From Zancudomyces culisetae (Eukaryota; Kickxellomycota; Harpellomycetes; Harpellales; Legeriomycetaceae): 38,638 nucleotides of DNA. The notes beneath the pieces are model-generated. The model saw nothing but the letters and a program-made list of their open reading frames with translations, was not told where the DNA came from and did no database searches. How positions within the stretch are numbered: the stretch's first letter is position 1; every line of letters starts with the position of its first letter. Both the position numbers and the translations under genes were made by a program. The DNA is taken from NCBI GenBank assembly GCA_001969505.1, contig LSSK01000637.1, positions 1 to 38,638 on the forward strand. Reading direction: 5' to 3'. Positions 1,195 to 34,833 of this stretch are shown one piece after another.

Positions 1195-2667
1195 TTACAG
1201 TTCATTTCCTACTGTTACCCAATAATCACGCAGATTATTTTTTCTTCCAAAAATCTCGAGATATCTTCCACCAGGAACTAACTCCTCAATTAGCTCGTAT
1301 AATTCTTCAGGCTTCTGACTTTGGCCTCTGCGCTCTGAAAAAATGACGTCGGAACCAATATTGTAGTGGGTTCCCTTAGGTTCCAAAATATCATGGTGAG
1401 GATTTGGAACGGTGGTACCATTTGTGTCCTGAGCGGAAGAGTCATGCGGTAAGAGAAGTTGTGTAGGCAAAGGACATGATATTGATGAGGCGGGTGGGTC
1501 TTGGGGAGTGCTTGCTTTGTTTTTGACACCAATTAGACACGACTCCTTTGCATGCTGAAGATAATACCCGTGCCCTTTTGCCATTCGGCGATTAACAGTT
1601 TGTTTTACCCATGCGATCTCATCTACATATGTATATCCCCAGGCCCTGAAAAGCTCAAACGCCTTGGAGAATTTGTTATTAATAACCCAGATAAACAAAA
1701 AACCACCCTCTTGCTGAAGACCCCCAATAGGTAGCGATTCAATACAAACATCCGGGAGTTGCTGGTAGGCGATGGCGACGCCGCGCGTTGGTGCCTGAGA
1801 AGCCAACTGCCATGGCGGATCCATAACAATCACATCAAACTGACAAGCAGCCGCTAGCTTACTCCAATCAAAGTCCATGACATTGGCTTTAATTGGAACG
1901 CAGTATTCGGGAGCCTGAAACTCTTCTGTATCTTGTTGGGTATCCTGTGTCGATTCAGTTTTTTCTGGAACTTCTCCTAGAGATATCTCCAGATTTTTTA
2001 TCTCTTTTTTTATTTCTTCTATTTTTGCTAGTATCTCGGCCTCACGGTCCAGAAGTTGTCTTTTTCTAGAATTATCGCCTATTTGCGGTTTGGGTGTTTT
2101 TCAATATGATACTTTAATTGTTAAAAGCAGAGTAAAAAAATGTATACTCCTACTCTCACCCCCCCCTCCTCCTACAGAAAAAAATAAGAGAAAACAAAAA
2201 TTGATGCACAAAAGTACCTTTAGTATCTGATCCTGTCTCCACTTTTACATCCCGATCAACAAAATCATCTAAAATTTATCACCATTACTTATAAAAAATC
2301 TGCCATTTTGTAACAAAAAACATAACTATGATACACAAAATGTATGTATGTATGTGTATATATATGTGTGTATACCTTCTTCTTCAGATATCATTACTAT
2401 CTCTCGTTTTCTGAATTCGTCTCTTGGTGATATACTTTTGGGTGAACTTTCGGGAGACACTTTAGACCCCTTTATAAAGTCGCCCAGACTGGTCTGGATT
2501 CGACCATGTTGTGGATCTGTAGTATTTTTATAGTCGCCATCAAAGTTCCCAGAGTCACTATTGGAGTTGAGACTGTTTTTCGAACTTTCATTTGTCCTTA
2601 GATCATGGTCTACACAATTTGAGCCTTTTATATCTAGTTTGTTGTCAATGTCGTGAGAATTGACCAT
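1195..2667 (-). CDS. MTA1: MTA1-type MT-A70 adenine methyltransferase (three exons)
   Basis: Exons read as 2667-2376, 2268-2218 and 2078-1195, joined at G|GTATAC...TTTTAG and G|GTACTT...AAATAG. Both joins keep frame and give 408 residues. Residues 1-115 are acidic and Ser-rich, probably disordered; 117-150 form a charged coiled-coil-like helix; the MT-A70 domain follows. The catalytic DPPW is at 201-204, preceded by FDVIVM. Further signatures are GVAIAY, AKGHGYYLQHAKESCLIG, SDVIFSERRGQSQKP and a C-terminal GNEL. These match the ciliate MTA1 catalytic subunit of the DNA N6-adenine methyltransferase complex as I know it. IME4/METTL3 instead has a GRTGHWLNH-type segment, and METTL14/KAR4 lacks DPPW. 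The expected activity is SAM-dependent N6-adenine methylation, probably of DNA with an MTA9-like partner not in this window. Residues about 302-352 are a Pro/Ser/Thr-rich insertion. The gene diverges from BMT2. Function is inferred from family, not shown. Confidence 0.85.
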
Positions 2668-3076: not shown

Positions 3077-3931
3077 ATGAAAAAGAAGAGAGTAAAAGAA
3101 TCTATAGCACAACAACAGCTCAACCGAGATAAAGCCCAAGGCACAAAAGCCAAAAAGCTAAAACCAAGGCAATTGATCAACGAGTTTCACAGGCTAACAA
3201 AAATCGAACAAGAGCTATCAAAAGCAGATGGAATAAATAATCCGAGACTCTTGGCAGAGATTTCCGAAGCTAAGAGCCAGCTGGGCGGAATCGAGGCATA
3301 TCAAAAAAGCAGTTTATTTGGACAGAGCAAAAAAAAAGGTGGCGATAGTAGCCGATGGCTAATAAAGCAGCTCAAGGACCTTGGTATCCACGAAACGGCT
3401 TCTCAAAGGCTGCGGTTACTAGATGTTGGGGCTTTAAGTGTGAACTATCTTAAAGAAAAGAATTGGATTGAAGCTAGGGCAATCGACTTGAACAACGCCT
3501 TGAAGATCGAAGGGGTTATAAAAAAAGACCTTTTAGAGCTTGATAATTACTACGATCCTGACGGCGAGAAAACCGAGGAGAATAAATACGACATTGTCAG
3601 TCTGTCGCTAGTAATAAACTTTGAGGGAGAAAGGGCGAAACGGGGCCAAATGCTGGTTAAAGCAGCCAACTTGCTAAAAATCGGAGGATACCTTTATGTT
3701 GTGTTACCAAAAAGCTGTATTTTCAACTCCAGGTATTTGAACAACGAAAGATTTATAGAAATTGCACGGGATCTGGGGTTTACAGAAACTACAAGACATC
3801 ACGTATCAAATAAACTTGTATATTACTTGTTTAGGCTCACGAAAAGAGTCTCACAATGGGTTAATCATCCAAAGAAAAAAATTCCTGAGAATGATGGACC
3901 TGGCAAGAATAACTTTTCTATAGAAATTTAA
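3077..3931 (+). CDS. BMT2: 25S rRNA adenine-N1 methyltransferase, Bmt2 family
   Basis: This 284-residue protein follows the Bmt2 plan. It has a basic N-terminus (KKKRVKES) fit for nucleolar location, then the family signature GGIEAYQKSSLFGQ followed by GGDSSRWL at residues about 70-95. The SAM-binding strand is LLDVGALSVNYL, and the segment YDIVSLSLVINFEGE corresponds to the SLVLNFVP-type motif. The C-terminus NDGPGKNNFSIEI is characteristic. In Saccharomyces this enzyme makes m1A in helix 65 of 25S rRNA in the nucleolus. The product is SAM-dependent and monofunctional. Intronless and complete; the ATG at 3077 is the first in frame and sits in an A-rich context. It diverges from the MTA1-type gene. 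Identification is by motif recall. Confidence 0.88.
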   Translation: MKKKRVKESIAQQQLNRDKAQGTKAKKLKPRQLINEFHRLTKIEQELSKADGINNPRLLAEISEAKSQLGGIEAYQKSSLFGQSKKKGGDSSRWLIKQLKDLGIHETASQRLRLLDVGALSVNYLKEKNWIEARAIDLNNALKIEGVIKKDLLELDNYYDPDGEKTEENKYDIVSLSLVINFEGERAKRGQMLVKAANLLKIGGYLYVVLPKSCIFNSRYLNNERFIEIARDLGFTETTRHHVSNKLVYYLFRLTKRVSQWVNHPKKKIPENDGPGKNNFSIEI

Positions 3932-16390: not shown

Positions 16391-17596
16391 TTACGCCTTA
16401 CGTTTATTAATAAACTTTTCTAATTGTTCCCAAAAACTCATTACCGTCGCTCTATCTATGTGTCTTTTACTACGTTCAATATTCATTACATACAAATTCC
16501 ATCCAACAGCTGTATCTCTTACTTTTTCATCACTAAACTTGGGATATACTCCAAAAACCCTTTCAAAGATCTGTTGTGGTGCCCCCCAGATCCAGTTTGT
16601 AAACTGCCATGCTGCACCATTTGTTAGTACACATACTACTTTGTCCCAATCTTCTGCTGTAAATCCATTAATGCTATCCACTATTTTGACTTTTCTTTTT
16701 CGCCCGCTAATTTCCTGCTCAATTATTATTTTTCGTGGTTTTTCTTTTCCTGAACTAATTGCTATTTTGTTATCGCTAAATTTATGCCCCTTTAATAACT
16801 CTTCAATGTTGTACATGTTGACTATTGATGTCGCCGCCGAGGGAATAATTATCACCAACTCATCACTTTCCTTCAATGTTTTATCTCGTGTATCCTTCCG
16901 GTGCCCCGCCACCCTTGTAGTGTTTCCACTCTCCACAGCACTCTTAACGCCCCCTTTGTGTACCACACTCTTTGCTCCGCTCTTTTCTTCCTTGCCTCCC
17001 TCCAATGCCTTTTTTAGCATTTCTTCAGAAATCTTTATCACATGTTCAAAGGATTTGTTGCTGGTCAAAATCGAGTTTCTGCCTCCCAAAACCCGTTCTC
17101 TTTTGGCTATTTGTTTGCACATTTGGGTGAGTTCTTCTTCCTCTTCATTACTTCGTTTGCTACCCAACCTTCCTTCGTCCAAATCCTCATTTTCCACATC
17201 TAGACTGTTTTCTAACTGTTCAATTTCCTTTTGATCCTTTAGATTATCGCTAGTCTCCTTCTTACCACTTAGATAATCAATTAAATCTGTTTTAAAAGTA
17301 AAACTAACTCCTTGGATTTTGTTTAGCTGTGTCGCCTTGAGGTATGTATAATATCCTTCATTTCTGTTCTTCCAGAAATAAAGCATGGATATTAAGGAAT
17401 ACCTATCGGCGGCTTTTTTCGAAAAATAGTAATTTGTAAGTTCATTCTTGTCAAAAGTTCCTGCATCGCCAAACTTTATTTGTTCAGCCTCCTCTATTTT
17501 TGTTGTAAGATTACCATCCTTATCCAAAAAATCAATCTCCTTGTTGTTTATTATAAATTCTCTTAAAAGTTGCAGTGGATTATTTCCCGTAGCCAT
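16391..17596 (-). CDS. CDC73: Paf1-complex subunit Cdc73 (parafibromin)
   Basis: The 401-residue product matches Cdc73 in length (about 393 in Saccharomyces) and layout. The N-terminus has LLREFIINNKEIDFLDKDGN, equal to the Cdc73 opening. A charged, low-complexity middle follows (about residues 110-245). The C-terminal Ras-like Cdc73 domain begins at IIIPSAATSIVNMYNIEELL and contains the signatures EDWDKVVCVLTNGAAWQF and SKRHIDRATVMSFWEQLEKF. The protein associates with RNA polymerase II and chromatin, linking elongation to histone modification and 3'-end formation. Intronless; the ATG at 17594-17596 is followed at once by the conserved N-terminus. It is convergent with ADE6 and lies 318 bp downstream of the arrestin gene on the same strand. 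Identification is secure. Confidence 0.95.
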   Translation of the reverse strand: MATGNNPLQLLREFIINNKEIDFLDKDGNLTTKIEEAEQIKFGDAGTFDKNELTNYYFSKKAADRYSLISMLYFWKNRNEGYYTYLKATQLNKIQGVSFTFKTDLIDYLSGKKETSDNLKDQKEIEQLENSLDVENEDLDEGRLGSKRSNEEEEELTQMCKQIAKRERVLGGRNSILTSNKSFEHVIKISEEMLKKALEGGKEEKSGAKSVVHKGGVKSAVESGNTTRVAGHRKDTRDKTLKESDELVIIIPSAATSIVNMYNIEELLKGHKFSDNKIAISSGKEKPRKIIIEQEISGRKRKVKIVDSINGFTAEDWDKVVCVLTNGAAWQFTNWIWGAPQQIFERVFGVYPKFSDEKVRDTAVGWNLYVMNIERSKRHIDRATVMSFWEQLEKFINKRKA

Positions 17597-17914: not shown

Positions 17915-20900
17915 TTATTTTTTGAAAAGGTTTTGAAATCCATGGAACATTTTCTCACTAAAACTCTTTACAGATCTTCTGGAATCATTTGAATTTTGTT
18001 TTGTAGTATTGGTTTGGGTATTATGTACATTAGCTCCATTATAAGAATTTCTTGTGCTAGTGTCGTAACTCAGAGTTTCATCAGCAATATTTGAAGGGTT
18101 ATGAGTAATATATTGAGTGTCAGACTTAGTATTGGTGCCAGTGGTATTTTGTTTTTGTTGCTCACTAGTATAAAAATGCTTTTCAAGATTTAGCAAGTTT
18201 ACATGCGGATCAAGAGACAAGTTCATTTTTTTAGTAGTAGTGGATGATGGACCCAAACCCATTTTGCTAAAAAATGCCTTCTTGCTTTTGGTTAAATCAC
18301 CATTGATGTCTGGTGCTCCCAACAGATCAGACTTGAGAGCGGTTCCAAGGTCAATGTAGTCTGGTTCGTCGGGAAGAGCCACTAGCTTTATACTATCATC
18401 ACACCTTTCTATAATGCTGGCAGAATCACGCAGATCTTGTTTGAGCAGTGATGGGATTCTTGTACCATTTGCAGCAGCGTTTTCACAAATATCTACACTT
18501 GCATATTTGGATTTGGATTTGGACTTGGATTTAGAGCTAGAGTTAGAACTAGAGTTAGATATTGGTGGCTCTTCAAGAACTCTTTCCAAAGGAGAAAATT
18601 CAATACGAGTACCATATATACTCTTCTGTTGAGATAAAAGAGTGGTTTGTCGAAGGCTAGAGGACTTTTTAGGCGGGAGGTTTGGTTTAGAATTTCCAGT
18701 AGTATTATCATGTTGATTGTTAGTATCGGTACACGTATCATCCAAACCAAAATAGAAGTCCAGATCACTGTTATTATATGGATTTGAAGGAGCCATATTG
18801 TCATATTTCAAAGTATTATCAGTTGTAATTTTCGCAACTGAAAAAGGATTGATGTTACTTTGGTTATTTTCGGAGAGTTGAATAGGTTGGGAAAACAACA
18901 TCGGAGAAATTTCGGCTTTATGAATGGTATTTGTTACAGGTTTGTGATCTTGAGTTTTTAACGAGCTGCCTTCGTCATGAATTTTGTTTACATTAAAAAC
19001 AAACGGCTCAAATAATCTTGAAAAGGATGATGAATTTTTTTTCAATCTTATTAGGGTATAGTCATGATTAGTATTAGTAGTATTACTAGAACCACCATTA
19101 CTATTGTTGTAGGTAATATTATTATTATAATTATTGCTGCTAGTACTATCAGTATTACCACTAGTACCAGTATGCAGCTTCTCATCGGTAGTTGCAATAC
19201 CGCTGAGTTTCATATTTTGATGATTGTTGTAAAATTTACTTTGATCGTTGCCACAATCGTACGGATGCAAACCAAGGTTAGGAGTGGTTGACTGTAATGG
19301 ATATTTTGTGCAAGTACTGTTTTCAGGGAAGTCGAGTTGTTTTGAAAAATTTTGTAGATTAACATTGGTATTACCATCTGGGTTGGATTTCATTTTTGCA
19401 GGTATGCTAGAAATACTGTTTCTATCAAACTCATTAATATTCGGTTTTTTCTCTTCAAAAAAGTCCTCATAACTAGTTATTGGAATTTCAGGAACGATGC
19501 TTTTATTACCAAGTAAATAGGAATTATCATTTACAGGATCATATGGCAATGATTTATGGATATCGTCCTTAGTAGGGGTTGATATACAATCTTTAGTTAT
19601 CATTAAACTAGTGAAATCCTTTTTCCTTTTCCTTTTACTCTCACTCTCACTCTCGCTCTGACCTCCACCCTCATTCTGTCTTTCATTCTCGCTTTCACTC
19701 TCGCTTTCATTTCCACTTTTATTTTTATCTTTATCCCTATCTTTGCCTTGGCTTCCAAATAATGCATTCATACGCTCTTTATGAGAGAATAAATGGTCAT
19801 TAAGCTCCTTTGATACTTTATCTGTTCTTGTAATAGCAAACATTTCATTTGCAAATACCCCTGTATTGTTGTTATTTACGTAAATATTCTTGTATACTTT
19901 ACTGTTTCTGAACACTCTTTGTGAATTACAATCAAAACGTATTGCTCTGGAATGTCTTTTGTGTATTGTGTTGGTAGTAGCTGTGACAGTGGTGGTGGTC
20001 TTGGTTGATTTGTTGCGATGTAAGCCACTAGTATGTCGCTCTTCCAAACGGGTTTTTGAAACTAGCCCGACATTAGTTGGATTGATTGTTGTTAAAAGTT
20101 TCTGCGATTCATCTGCAAGACCAGGATCACTTTTCACCCTACAGCTCAATATTGTACTTTCATAAATTCCAAATAAAGCATCATTATTGGAAAGGGATGG
20201 TGTAGTGTTATAACTGTGATTACTTTTATTTTCCCCCAGTAAATACAGTGATAAATCATTGTTTTTTTTAGTGTGGGCAATATTGTTTATAGAGATAGGT
20301 TTCTGGCTTCTATCTACGTATCTAGTTGTACTAGCTAAGCTCTTGTTATCATCTTTATGAAAATATTGATTTTTTTGTCTTGATGATAAATCATTTGGTG
20401 GGCTTATAAGAACGATCTCTCGCCTGGTCTTCTTCTTATTGTTGTTGCTATAGATTGATTTTTGATACTTATTTTCATTATCCTGGGCTGTTGTTACTAA
20501 TTCAAAATCATCTTGTTCCAGCGATTTTATACTAAACTTGTTTTCCGAGTACTCAGTGGAATGATATGTTCGTTTTGATGAGATCTTGGACGAGTTTGAA
20601 TTTTCTCTATACAAGTCCGTTGTTGATCCTGCTCCTTTATAGTATGTCTCATTACTATCTCTAAAGCTTATAAGTGATGTGTTTTTTAACTTCAAATACT
20701 CCAACATATTCATGTTTAAGAGCTTAGGTCTTTCGGGTGAGGTAGGTTGTACCATTGGAAATGCCTCCAACGAACTAGTACTTGAATTTTTCAAAGCATC
20801 TATAAACAATTTTTTATACCCCTCTGACATGACTTTTTTGTTGGGTTTTTTTTGTTTAATTGTCAGACTCGCTTGATCGCTCAAAGCCGTGCATGTGCTT

Positions 20901-31482: not shown

Positions 31483-34400
31483 ATGATGAAAGAGTTGGAT
31501 ATAAGTAAAGGTACAAAGGTAGAGTACAGTAATACAAATAACACAACAGACACAGCGTATGAAAGAGAGGTAGTGGACAAGATAGTGTTGGATGTATGGA
31601 CCAAGGGTCACAGAGGAGAGGGTATTTATGACAGTAGAGAAACTACAAAAGGCCCAGAGGGAGAGGAGGAGAGAGAAAACGAAAAGTTGGATAAAATGGG
31701 GGGAAAAGAAGGGTTTACGGCGATTAGGGCGGTGAGGACGGATCAAGACGAGGGGATCCGACATATGAGGACAAAGTCATATGGAACATCATTGTTGGAT
31801 ATGATGAATGCAAGATCTGGCGATTATGGAAGAAGAACCTGGCGGTTTTATGATAATGAAGAGATGCCAACAACACAGTTTGAGCGACTAGGATTGAAGA
31901 ATACAGGTGAAAACAAGATGGATGTGGGCTCTCGGGGAAGAGAGGAAATGAGGATAGGAATGGAGAAGGAGAGGCAGCGTGGAGAAGGGTTTGGAGGGCC
32001 AATTGCAGAGATATCAAATGAAAGTATATTTGGGTTGCCACCAGGAATACAACATCCACCACCGGGATTGGAGGATGGGACAGTGAGAGCGAAAGAGACA
32101 GAAGGGAGCAATGAAGTGAATGAAAGAGCAGTGGGGTCATCTGTAGTATATGGGATAGCGGAAGAAAATGTATGGGGAAGTGATAGTGTAGCGGTGCCTA
32201 CAAGAGTGAATAAAGATTTTGGGATGGGATATCTAGACCAAGGAAGTGAAACGGTGATAGGAAAAGAGAAAGGAGTAGGAAGCGGAGAGAAGGAAAGAGA
32301 AATGAAGAGTGTTGAGGGGGTGGAGGGAACGGCTATTAACCGAGGAATTTCAGCACCAGATACATGGGACAACTGGAGAACAACCAAGGCGCGATTGCAG
32401 GGCTATTCGTTTGGAGATACAGCGAGGAACGACAAGCTGAACTTCAGTTCGCTAGGACAAGGGATGGAGTTTAAAGCACATGCTAGATCGCATACTTTAG
32501 GGAATGCAACAGATGTAGATAACTTTATAGGGCGAAGACCGCTAGAAGGACTTGGAACAGCGGGGATTCGCGGATATTTGGGGCGAATGGGGACAGGGTT
32601 CGGGTATGACATGGAATACAATGAGAATGAGATGGCACCGCAAGCACAGATGTTGGGTAACAGACATTTGAGACAAGGGTCACTAAACTTTTTGGGACAG
32701 GGTGATGCAATGCGAATGGGGCGAGGTAAGCCAGCAACTACACTTAGCCACGATGTTCCGGTCTCAGGGTCGAATGAGAATAATTTTTCGGCAGTGGGAC
32801 GAGCAGGAACTAGCGGATTATTGCATGGTATTGGACTTGGCGACAGTCGACACATTAGCTCGATGTCACTGAGTGGAAGTATTGGATCGATTGGTGAGCT
32901 GGCACCAACACGGTCGTTGTGGGTAGGAAACCTGGATTTGGCGATTACACCACGCGAGTTGATATCGATGTTTGGTAAATATGGACGTATTGAGAGTCTA
33001 CGAACTCTGCCAGACAAGGAATGTGCGTTTATTAACTTTATGAGACTAGAGGATGCTATGCGAGCACACGACGAGATGCAAGGTGGAATGGTAGGAAACT
33101 GCACAGTGAGAGTAGGGTATGGGCGTGGCGAGGGATATGCTAGTAGTGATGCACAGGCGATGCAGCCTACACGGGCTTTGTGGGTTGGAAATATATCACC
33201 AAACACAACAGCAGGATCGTTGCGACAATTGTTTGAGCAGTTTGGAGCGGTTGAAAGTGCACGAATTCTGACACAGAAAAACTGTGGGTTTGTGAACTTT
33301 GAAAGATTGGAAGACTCGGTGAGAGCTAAGCAAGCGACTAATGGTAAGGAGTTGGATGGAATGGTTTTGCGTATTGGGTATGCTAAAGTACCACTTAAAG
33401 GTGTTGAGGGTCATCACCGTCTGCGTAATATGATTCCAACAGCACCACCTCTTACAATGAGTGGTCGTATTGCCGAAGCAAATGCCATTTTGGGTACATC
33501 TACAGTTGGGTTGGGAAATGAAGATGTGCTAGAGCCTGGAGTCCCGGCTATGGATGAACAGCTGGTCGCTTTCCCATACGTCACATCTTTGCCACCACTG
33601 CCTGAATCACGCGATTTGCCATTCTCGCAAGCCAAACTGCGCGAAATGCGAAAGCGGCTGGACGTACAGTGTCCATCAGGTGAATTTGATGCTATTTTTA
33701 ACGAATCTCTTCATGTATTGGCAGAATTATGTACAGATTATGTTGGAAACATGTTGGTCCAGCGCCTGGCCGAACGTGCAACCAGCGCTCAGAAACTGGC
33801 TATGATATCTGCAGTTTCTCGCCACATTGCAGCCATTGGTGTTCACAAAAATGGTACCTGGGCTATTCAAAAGCTGATCGACTGCTGCTCCTCTGCTGAT
33901 CAGCAGTCCGCCATTGTCGATGCTTTGCGTCCATTTATTCCTCAGCTGCTGCTCGACCAGCTTGGTAATTATGTTGTCCAGTGCTGTCTTCCATTTGCCG
34001 ATGGTCGCAACCAGTTCATTTTTGAAGCTATCCATGCTCGTTGTTGGGAAATCGCCCAGGGCCGCTTTGGTGCTCGTGCTATTCGCACTTGTTTGGAACA
34101 TCCAAATACTTCTCGATCGCAGCAGAAACTCGTTGCTATCTCTTTGGTTCTTGACTCTGTTTCACTTGCTACAAACCCCAATGGAAATATCCTCATCACC
34201 TGGCTCCTTGATATTTCTGCCTTCCCCGGCCGTTTCCGTGTATTGGCTCCTCAGCTCGCCTGCCATTTGCGCCATCTTTGTACTCACAAACTTGGTTCGA
34301 CCTCTATTCTCAAACTCATTGATCAGCGCCAAGAACCCGATGCCCGTGATCTTTTGCTCAACACTCTCTTCTTCAATCCTGAGCCTCAGGTTCTTGAGGA

Positions 34401-34833
34401 TATTGTTTCTGATCAAGTTCATGGTGCTTCTCTTGTTTTACGCATCTTGTCTTGCTCAAACATCGATGATATCGAAAAGCTTCGTATTTCTGTCCGTGTT
34501 CAAGCCTCATTGCAACCTCTACAAAAACAAGGTGTCCAGGGTTATCAGAAACTTGCCGATCTTGTTGATTCCATTCTGATTTCTTCAAACAAGCTTAGCC
34601 TCCAACCTTCCATCTCCTCTTCATCTTCTTCATCTTCTTCGATTCCTCAAGCTGACCCCATTTCCTCAATCACCATAACTCTTCAAAACTCTGATCTTTA
34701 TTCTTCTCCTTCAAATAACAACGGCTCTACACCTGATTCTTTTTTACCAACTTCACAATCAAACAATCCTACCAATCAACAATACTTCTCTAGTTCTATA
34801 CTATCTTCATCCTATGTGAATTTTTCAAATTAA
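31483..34833 (+). CDS. RNA-binding protein with two RRMs and a Pumilio domain (Jsn1/Puf2 type)
   Basis: The 1116-residue product has a long Gly/Glu/Arg-rich, probably disordered N-terminus (1-470). RRM1 spans about 477-545 (RNP2 LWVGNLD, RNP1-like CAFINF). RRM2 spans about 563-637 (LWVGNIS, CGFVNF). Pumilio/PUF repeats occupy about 726-1026, with repeat cores such as YVGNMLVQRL, NGTWAIQKLI, LGNYVVQCCL and FGARAIRTCL. A Ser/Asn-rich tail follows. RRM plus PUF in one chain is the Jsn1/Puf2 plan of fungi, whose members bind mRNAs for membrane and mitochondrial proteins. Intronless. The ATG at 31483 follows a purine-rich leader that stretches upstream for kilobases. Codon use changes sharply along the gene, from AGA, GGA and TTG codons to CGC, CTC and TCT. 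It runs in tandem with URA4. Orthology to one particular PUF gene is not settled. Confidence 0.88.
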   Translation: MMKELDISKGTKVEYSNTNNTTDTAYEREVVDKIVLDVWTKGHRGEGIYDSRETTKGPEGEEERENEKLDKMGGKEGFTAIRAVRTDQDEGIRHMRTKSYGTSLLDMMNARSGDYGRRTWRFYDNEEMPTTQFERLGLKNTGENKMDVGSRGREEMRIGMEKERQRGEGFGGPIAEISNESIFGLPPGIQHPPPGLEDGTVRAKETEGSNEVNERAVGSSVVYGIAEENVWGSDSVAVPTRVNKDFGMGYLDQGSETVIGKEKGVGSGEKEREMKSVEGVEGTAINRGISAPDTWDNWRTTKARLQGYSFGDTARNDKLNFSSLGQGMEFKAHARSHTLGNATDVDNFIGRRPLEGLGTAGIRGYLGRMGTGFGYDMEYNENEMAPQAQMLGNRHLRQGSLNFLGQGDAMRMGRGKPATTLSHDVPVSGSNENNFSAVGRAGTSGLLHGIGLGDSRHISSMSLSGSIGSIGELAPTRSLWVGNLDLAITPRELISMFGKYGRIESLRTLPDKECAFINFMRLEDAMRAHDEMQGGMVGNCTVRVGYGRGEGYASSDAQAMQPTRALWVGNISPNTTAGSLRQLFEQFGAVESARILTQKNCGFVNFERLEDSVRAKQATNGKELDGMVLRIGYAKVPLKGVEGHHRLRNMIPTAPPLTMSGRIAEANAILGTSTVGLGNEDVLEPGVPAMDEQLVAFPYVTSLPPLPESRDLPFSQAKLREMRKRLDVQCPSGEFDAIFNESLHVLAELCTDYVGNMLVQRLAERATSAQKLAMISAVSRHIAAIGVHKNGTWAIQKLIDCCSSADQQSAIVDALRPFIPQLLLDQLGNYVVQCCLPFADGRNQFIFEAIHARCWEIAQGRFGARAIRTCLEHPNTSRSQQKLVAISLVLDSVSLATNPNGNILITWLLDISAFPGRFRVLAPQLACHLRHLCTHKLGSTSILKLIDQRQEPDARDLLLNTLFFNPEPQVLEDIVSDQVHGASLVLRILSCSNIDDIEKLRISVRVQASLQPLQKQGVQGYQKLADLVDSILISSNKLSLQPSISSSSSSSSSIPQADPISSITITLQNSDLYSSPSNNNGSTPDSFLPTSQSNNPTNQQYFSSSILSSSYVNFSN

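Follow-up and report, generated by a model that had tools for sequence, protein, structure and literature searches.

An MTA1/AMT1-type adenine methyltransferase gene and an MTA9 partner gene in the insect-gut fungus Zancudomyces culisetae

A gene for an MT-A70 methyltransferase was identified at positions 1195-2667 (minus strand) of the window, the whole 38,638-nucleotide stretch of DNA that was analyzed. It is very probably the Zancudomyces culisetae orthologue of MTA1 (also AMT1), the catalytic subunit of the DNA N6-adenine methyltransferase complex, acting by the mechanism proposed below. The gene is real, and its product is most likely a DNA-adenine-methylating enzyme, as judged by analogy. 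The gene, its family, its catalytic motif and a partner gene were observed directly, while substrate, ApT specificity and complex formation are predicted from the orthologues.

The contig belongs to Z. culisetae, an insect-gut fungus of the Harpellales (Kickxellomycota), and thus to a type of fungus for which an MTA1/AMT1 gene with an MTA9 partner is to be expected. The original prediction had described a yeast-like fungal genome and suggested that, in an ascomycete, a DNA 6mA system would be new for the group. The contig's identity and the relatives of three genes (MTA1, MTA9 and Bmt2) led to the rejection of an ascomycete or yeast origin, and AMT1 has already been published in early-diverging fungi (PMC8298701, PMC11258239, PMC12695648). 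Because the host belongs to an early-diverging group already known to use the 6mA system, the finding is an ordinary one, and it provides no extension of 6mA to the ascomycetes. Its interest lies in the retention of a DNA 6mA pair in a gut symbiont from which roughly one fifth of the single-copy genes usual in fungi are missing, and in two errors brought to light in the annotation, a name proper to an RNA methylase and a gene model without a conserved helix.

Gene model, active site and partner subunit

Two open reading frames underlie the gene, one at 1195-1878 with 227 codons counted from an internal ATG and one on its 5' side at 2326-2667, both on the minus strand like all features of the gene described here. 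Splicing of 2667-2376, 2268-2218 and 2078-1195 gave a single frame of 408 residues. Exon 1 (2376-2667, start codon 2667-2665) encodes a poorly conserved N-terminal tail, exon 2 (2218-2268) has 51 bases and is the least certain part of the model, and exon 3 (1195-2078) encodes a helix followed by the whole MT-A70 methyltransferase domain and the stop codon. The putative introns at 2269-2375 (GTATAC..TTTTAG), placed from the reading frame, and at 2079-2217 (GTACTT..AAATAG), likewise predicted, are both of the GT..AG type. In the 408-residue protein the catalytic DPPW is located at residues 201-204 (codons at 1810-1821), GVAIAY begins at residue 214, AKGHGYYLQHAKESCLIG at 281 and SDVIFSERRGQSQKP at 357, and GNEL forms the C-terminal end. 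Splicing and motif positions thus bear out the two-intron gene, the complete 408-residue MT-A70 protein and the motifs of the original prediction. In the ranges searched, 62 combinations of GT and AG sites left one terminal stop only, so the N-terminus of the model is less certain than had been implied.

The deposited protein (P0001) has 337 residues and one intron (2435-1977). Compared to the 408-residue model it drops 71 residues, about 78-148, a segment that contains QLLDREAEILAKIEEIKKEIKNLE from residue 122. A helix like QLLDREAEILAKIEEIKKEIKNLE was recognized by eye at the corresponding position of each of the 11 other fungal proteins in the alignment, five from other Harpellales and six from further fungi. 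Because the start of exon 3 encodes this common helix, the 408-residue model is preferred and is, on sequence grounds, better than the deposited one. The helical domain of Tetrahymena MTA1 is described as an 'arm' that grabs p1 and p2, and methylation was reported as unaffected when the N-terminus of the Tetrahymena protein was truncated (PMC9174199). By analogy, the fungal helix may have the same p1- and p2-gripping role.

Thirteen of the 14 Tetrahymena MTA1 positions checked were identical in Z. culisetae, including nine of the ten SAM contacts (D182, D209, K334, E353, F355, R357, N359, N360, N370 and E371). The exception is Asp182, which corresponds to Asn180 (codon at 1882-1884). In Tetrahymena, Asp182 contacts the SAM adenine and an Asp182Ala mutant is inactive; the position is termed highly conserved in MTA1 and METTL3 (PMC9174199). 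Contrary to that description, its conservation was mostly absent from the fungal homologue set: among 119 homologues, unevenly sampled as the best 120 hits of one query with the deposited copy excluded, 112 have Asn, six Asp and one Arg. The Asp carriers are proteins from Gigaspora, Rhizophagus (four) and Glomus; the Ambispora and Geosiphon proteins of the same set are not among them. Since Asn is common to 112 of the 119 homologues, a loss of activity caused by Asn180 appears unlikely.

A search of the same genome, a draft of 23.1 Mb in 859 contigs, detected MT-A70 (PF05063) matches at two loci only, the MTA1 locus and 18871-19116 (minus strand) on contig C18. The original prediction had proposed a search for MTA9 in the rest of the genome, and the C18 locus supplied an MTA9-like partner. 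The C18 protein has DPQL in place of DPPW, and its best match among solved structures was MTA9 (7f4s_D, E 1.4e-9), followed by MTA1 (6.2e-8) and METTL14 (0.0028). Thirteen MTA9 homologues were listed, 12 of them with an organism name, one being Zancudomyces itself; judged by genus, all 12 are from early-diverging fungi. Seven of the homologues were viewed for the motif, which was DPQL in Zancudomyces and DPPL in the other six. Read piece by piece, the frame on C18 extends as far as the C-terminus usual for such proteins, WAPPNFSREGWTCISE. The deposited MTA9 protein (P0121, locus L003, minus strand) skips the conserved RYFCKSKLTCLIF and stops early; the C-terminal piece missing from it is still encoded in the C18 DNA. 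By analogy with MTA1c, the C18 protein would be the inactive MT-A70 partner known as MTA9 or AMT6/7, and pairing with MTA1 is predicted.

Proposed mechanism and expected 6mA

In the mechanism proposed, MTA1 would pair with the inactive MTA9 subunit. Its N-terminal helix would hold it on the DNA together with a DNA-binding partner, which is P1 in Mucorales and p1 along with p2 in ciliates. With SAM as methyl donor, MTA1 would then methylate ApT adenines in both strands, chiefly close to where active genes begin. AMT1 is described as ancestral in eukaryotes and repeatedly lost, and robust 6mA as confined to AMT1-encoding species among 18 eukaryotes profiled (PMC12695648). According to PMC8298701, every early-diverging or mycorrhizal fungus that shows substantial symmetric ApT methylation has AMT1, and none of the Dikarya examined has it. 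All symmetric 6mA sites of Mucor were lost when mta1 or p1 was deleted, and p2 is absent from Mucor. Total 6mA was unchanged without mta1 or p1, which in the mta1 deletion is explained by most of the 6mA there being asymmetric (PMC11258239).

It is improbable, though the least so among the alternatives considered, that Z. culisetae has kept the gene but has little or no 6mA, like some chytrids and Glomeromycota. Some lineages that encode MTA1 have low 6mA (PMC13297926), and Glomeromycota and chytrids are among the several early-diverging groups in which low 6mA has been reported, in their case despite an encoded MTA1 (PMC11258239). Z. culisetae also lacks about 20% of BUSCO genes (PMC12611240). 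Against this stand the intact catalytic motif, the nearly complete set of SAM contacts and the MTA9 frame readable to its C-terminus, and Kickxellomycota are reported among the six groups with the highest 6mA, 0.8-3.8% (PMC11258239). An active MTA1 with symmetric ApT methylation is the preferred expectation. In the open-licence literature searched, no paper was found on 6mA in Zancudomyces, on N6-methyladenine in Smittium or on DNA methylation in Harpellales. For strain HAW-14-8, Nanopore (R9.4 flow cell, 844x), PacBio-CLR (468x) and HiFi sequencing was published in 2025, along with RNA-seq (PMC12611240, BioProject PRJNA1254182); the text of that article contains no word beginning 'methyl' or '6mA'. 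As Nanopore and PacBio sequencing of HAW-14-8 has been published, the question of symmetric ApT 6mA in Harpellales may be answerable without new sequencing, and a direct test from the deposited data may be possible.

Family assignment, other methyltransferases and inheritance

The Pfam scan of the 408-residue protein gave a match to MT-A70 (PF05063, E 9.3e-37) as the sole match at E<=0.001; a zinc finger was not found at this threshold. The best solved relatives were Tetrahymena MTA1 structures, with 226-228 bits for the wild type (E 2.2e-66 at 227.7 bits). Scores were 103-108 bits for METTL3 (maximum 107.7), 51-54 bits for METTL14 (maximum 53.7) and 32.2 bits for a plant METTL4-type structure. 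A tree was built from 33 rows (20 of the 119 MTA1 homologues, eight of the 13 MTA9 homologues and five others), and in it the protein grouped with four other Harpellales MTA1 proteins with a support of 99/99. METTL3 and METTL14 formed a separate pair (99/96) apart from it, each of these and METTL4 being represented by one row, with a METTL4 branch of about 7.9 and an arbitrary midpoint root. Nine of the 30 inner branches were well supported, and Tetrahymena MTA1 stood at the base with no resolved placement. The fungal MTA9 clade (100/100) emerges from among the fungal MTA1 proteins, with a branch length of 4.42 and below a poorly supported fork (80/78), a position that may be an artefact. The bit scores and the tree, the latter a check proposed in the original prediction, agree with the assignment made there to the MTA1 type and not to IME4/METTL3.

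The deposited name of P0001, 'N6-adenosine-methyltransferase 70 kDa subunit', would make the gene an IME4/METTL3-type mRNA m6A methyltransferase. The same deposited name is carried by two Smittium culicis homologues, and a human METTL3 query matches the MTA1 locus in two pieces with 44% identity each. This reading is very unlikely: the bit score to MTA1 is twice that to METTL3, the protein lies outside the METTL3/METTL14 pair in the tree, and the sole other MT-A70 protein found resembles MTA9 and not METTL14. A METTL3 identity was rejected on the scores to solved structures and the placement in the tree.

Queries with METTL3, METTL14 and METTL4 against the 23.1 Mb draft at E<=10 returned the MTA1 locus alone, or this locus together with C18, and no further locus. 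An absence of the three genes from Z. culisetae is thus likely and not proven, because the independent HiFi assembly of strain HAW-14-8, in 26 contigs, is longer at 27.2 Mb (PMC12611240), and because the searches ignore introns and score only the best candidates. Two weak matches to PF02384 (N6_Mtase), the bacterial-type family of MetB, were found in the genome, of 36.9 and 25.6 bits at a curated cut-off of 20.4. General methyltransferase families give either protein a higher score than PF02384 does, and the two look like HemK- and Trm11-like methyltransferases; judged by these family profiles, an identity as MetB is disfavoured.

The search for p1 and p2 gave 14 distinct Myb/homeobox frames in the genome. 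Three of the 14 frames or pieces were compared with solved structures, a ZZZ3-like Myb frame, a multi-Myb piece and a TRF-like telobox piece, and none matched a p1 or p2 chain. The loci L014 and L017 encode the TRF-like telobox protein (TRF2, E 1.2e-8) and the ZZZ3-like Myb protein (E 3e-21). For five of the Myb/homeobox loci, a second copy with the same or nearly the same frame lies on another contig (L009/L010, L014/L015, L017/L018, L026/L027 and L028/L029), which suggests that the draft contains haplotypes left uncollapsed or contigs present in duplicate.

The chances are about even that Z. culisetae has kept only the MTA1/MTA9 pair and lost METTL3, METTL14, METTL4 and MetB, a clean one-writer system combined with the fungus-wide change from Asp to Asn. 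If so, any m6A or 6mA made by an MT-A70 enzyme in Z. culisetae must come from MTA1, and such a change in the SAM pocket of fungal enzymes would be unexpected from the ciliate mutants.

The gene next to MTA1, at 3077-3931 (plus strand), encodes a Bmt2-type 25S rRNA adenine methyltransferase (PF11968, E 3.8e-54). A protein search with it gave 23 hits and no Zancudomyces copy, the best being 46% identical and from Coemansia; the public Z. culisetae annotation may lack Bmt2 or carry a faulty model of it. The top four relatives of Bmt2 come from Coemansia, Furculomyces, Coemansia and Smittium, and the more distant ones include lancelets. Elsewhere in the window, Pfam matches were obtained for Cdc73 of the Paf1 complex (16391-17596, minus strand) and for a protein in which RRM domains are combined with a match to a Pumilio repeat (31483-34833, plus strand). 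A tRNA scan with bacterial settings and an Rfam family scan of the whole window found nothing.

For MTA1, MTA9 and Bmt2, the nearest relatives with an organism name are from Harpellales and Coemansia. The protein search with MTA1 found 714 homologues, and 108 of the best 120, Zancudomyces included, have an organism name; judged by genus, all 108 are from early-diverging fungi. MTA1 in Z. culisetae looks vertically inherited within the early-diverging fungi. It is scarcely credible that the contig is a contamination of another assembly by a ciliate or another fungus, an idea for which nothing speaks beyond the earlier impression of a yeast-like genome. The original prediction had raised contamination by a ciliate or an early-diverging fungus as a concern; the early-diverging fungus is indeed there, as the host, and contamination is contradicted by the relatives of the three genes and by the Zancudomyces MTA9 on C18 (29120 bases) in the same assembly. 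A recent horizontal transfer into the lineage, for which no supporting point was found, is hardly conceivable in view of the single Harpellales clade among early-diverging fungi and of the 108 named homologues.

Comparison with known systems

The IME4/METTL3 enzymes, which form m6A in mRNA, share the MT-A70 family and DPPW with the Z. culisetae protein, but they reach half the score and form a separate clade, and no zinc finger was matched in the Z. culisetae protein at E<=0.001. Linderina pennispora belongs to the same subphylum as Z. culisetae and to a different order. It is included in the tree legend of PMC8298701, and the statement made there on early-diverging fungi implies that L. pennispora itself would have AMT1; among the legend species covered, none from Harpellales was found.

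The MTA1c of Mucor and Rhizopus (Mta1, Mta9 and P1) is of the same family and kingdom and also has MTA9, and in the alignment the Rhizopus delemar protein has the helix before the MT-A70 domain. In contrast, Mucor is reported to have MetB and a METTL4-like protein, metC, in addition (PMC11258239), whereas the METTL4 query found no second gene in Z. culisetae. P1 had no counterpart among the three Z. culisetae Myb frames or pieces compared with solved structures.

The closest likeness among solved structures is to Tetrahymena MTA1/AMT1, the catalytic subunit of MTA1c, with which the Z. culisetae protein shares DPPW, GVAIAY, KGHG-YLQHAKESCLIGVK, SDVIFSERRGQSQKPEE and the C-terminal GNEL. It differs from the ciliate enzyme by the Asn in the SAM pocket and by some 50 residues inserted ahead of SDVIFSERR, which the other five Harpellales proteins of the alignment also carry and its six other fungal proteins lack.
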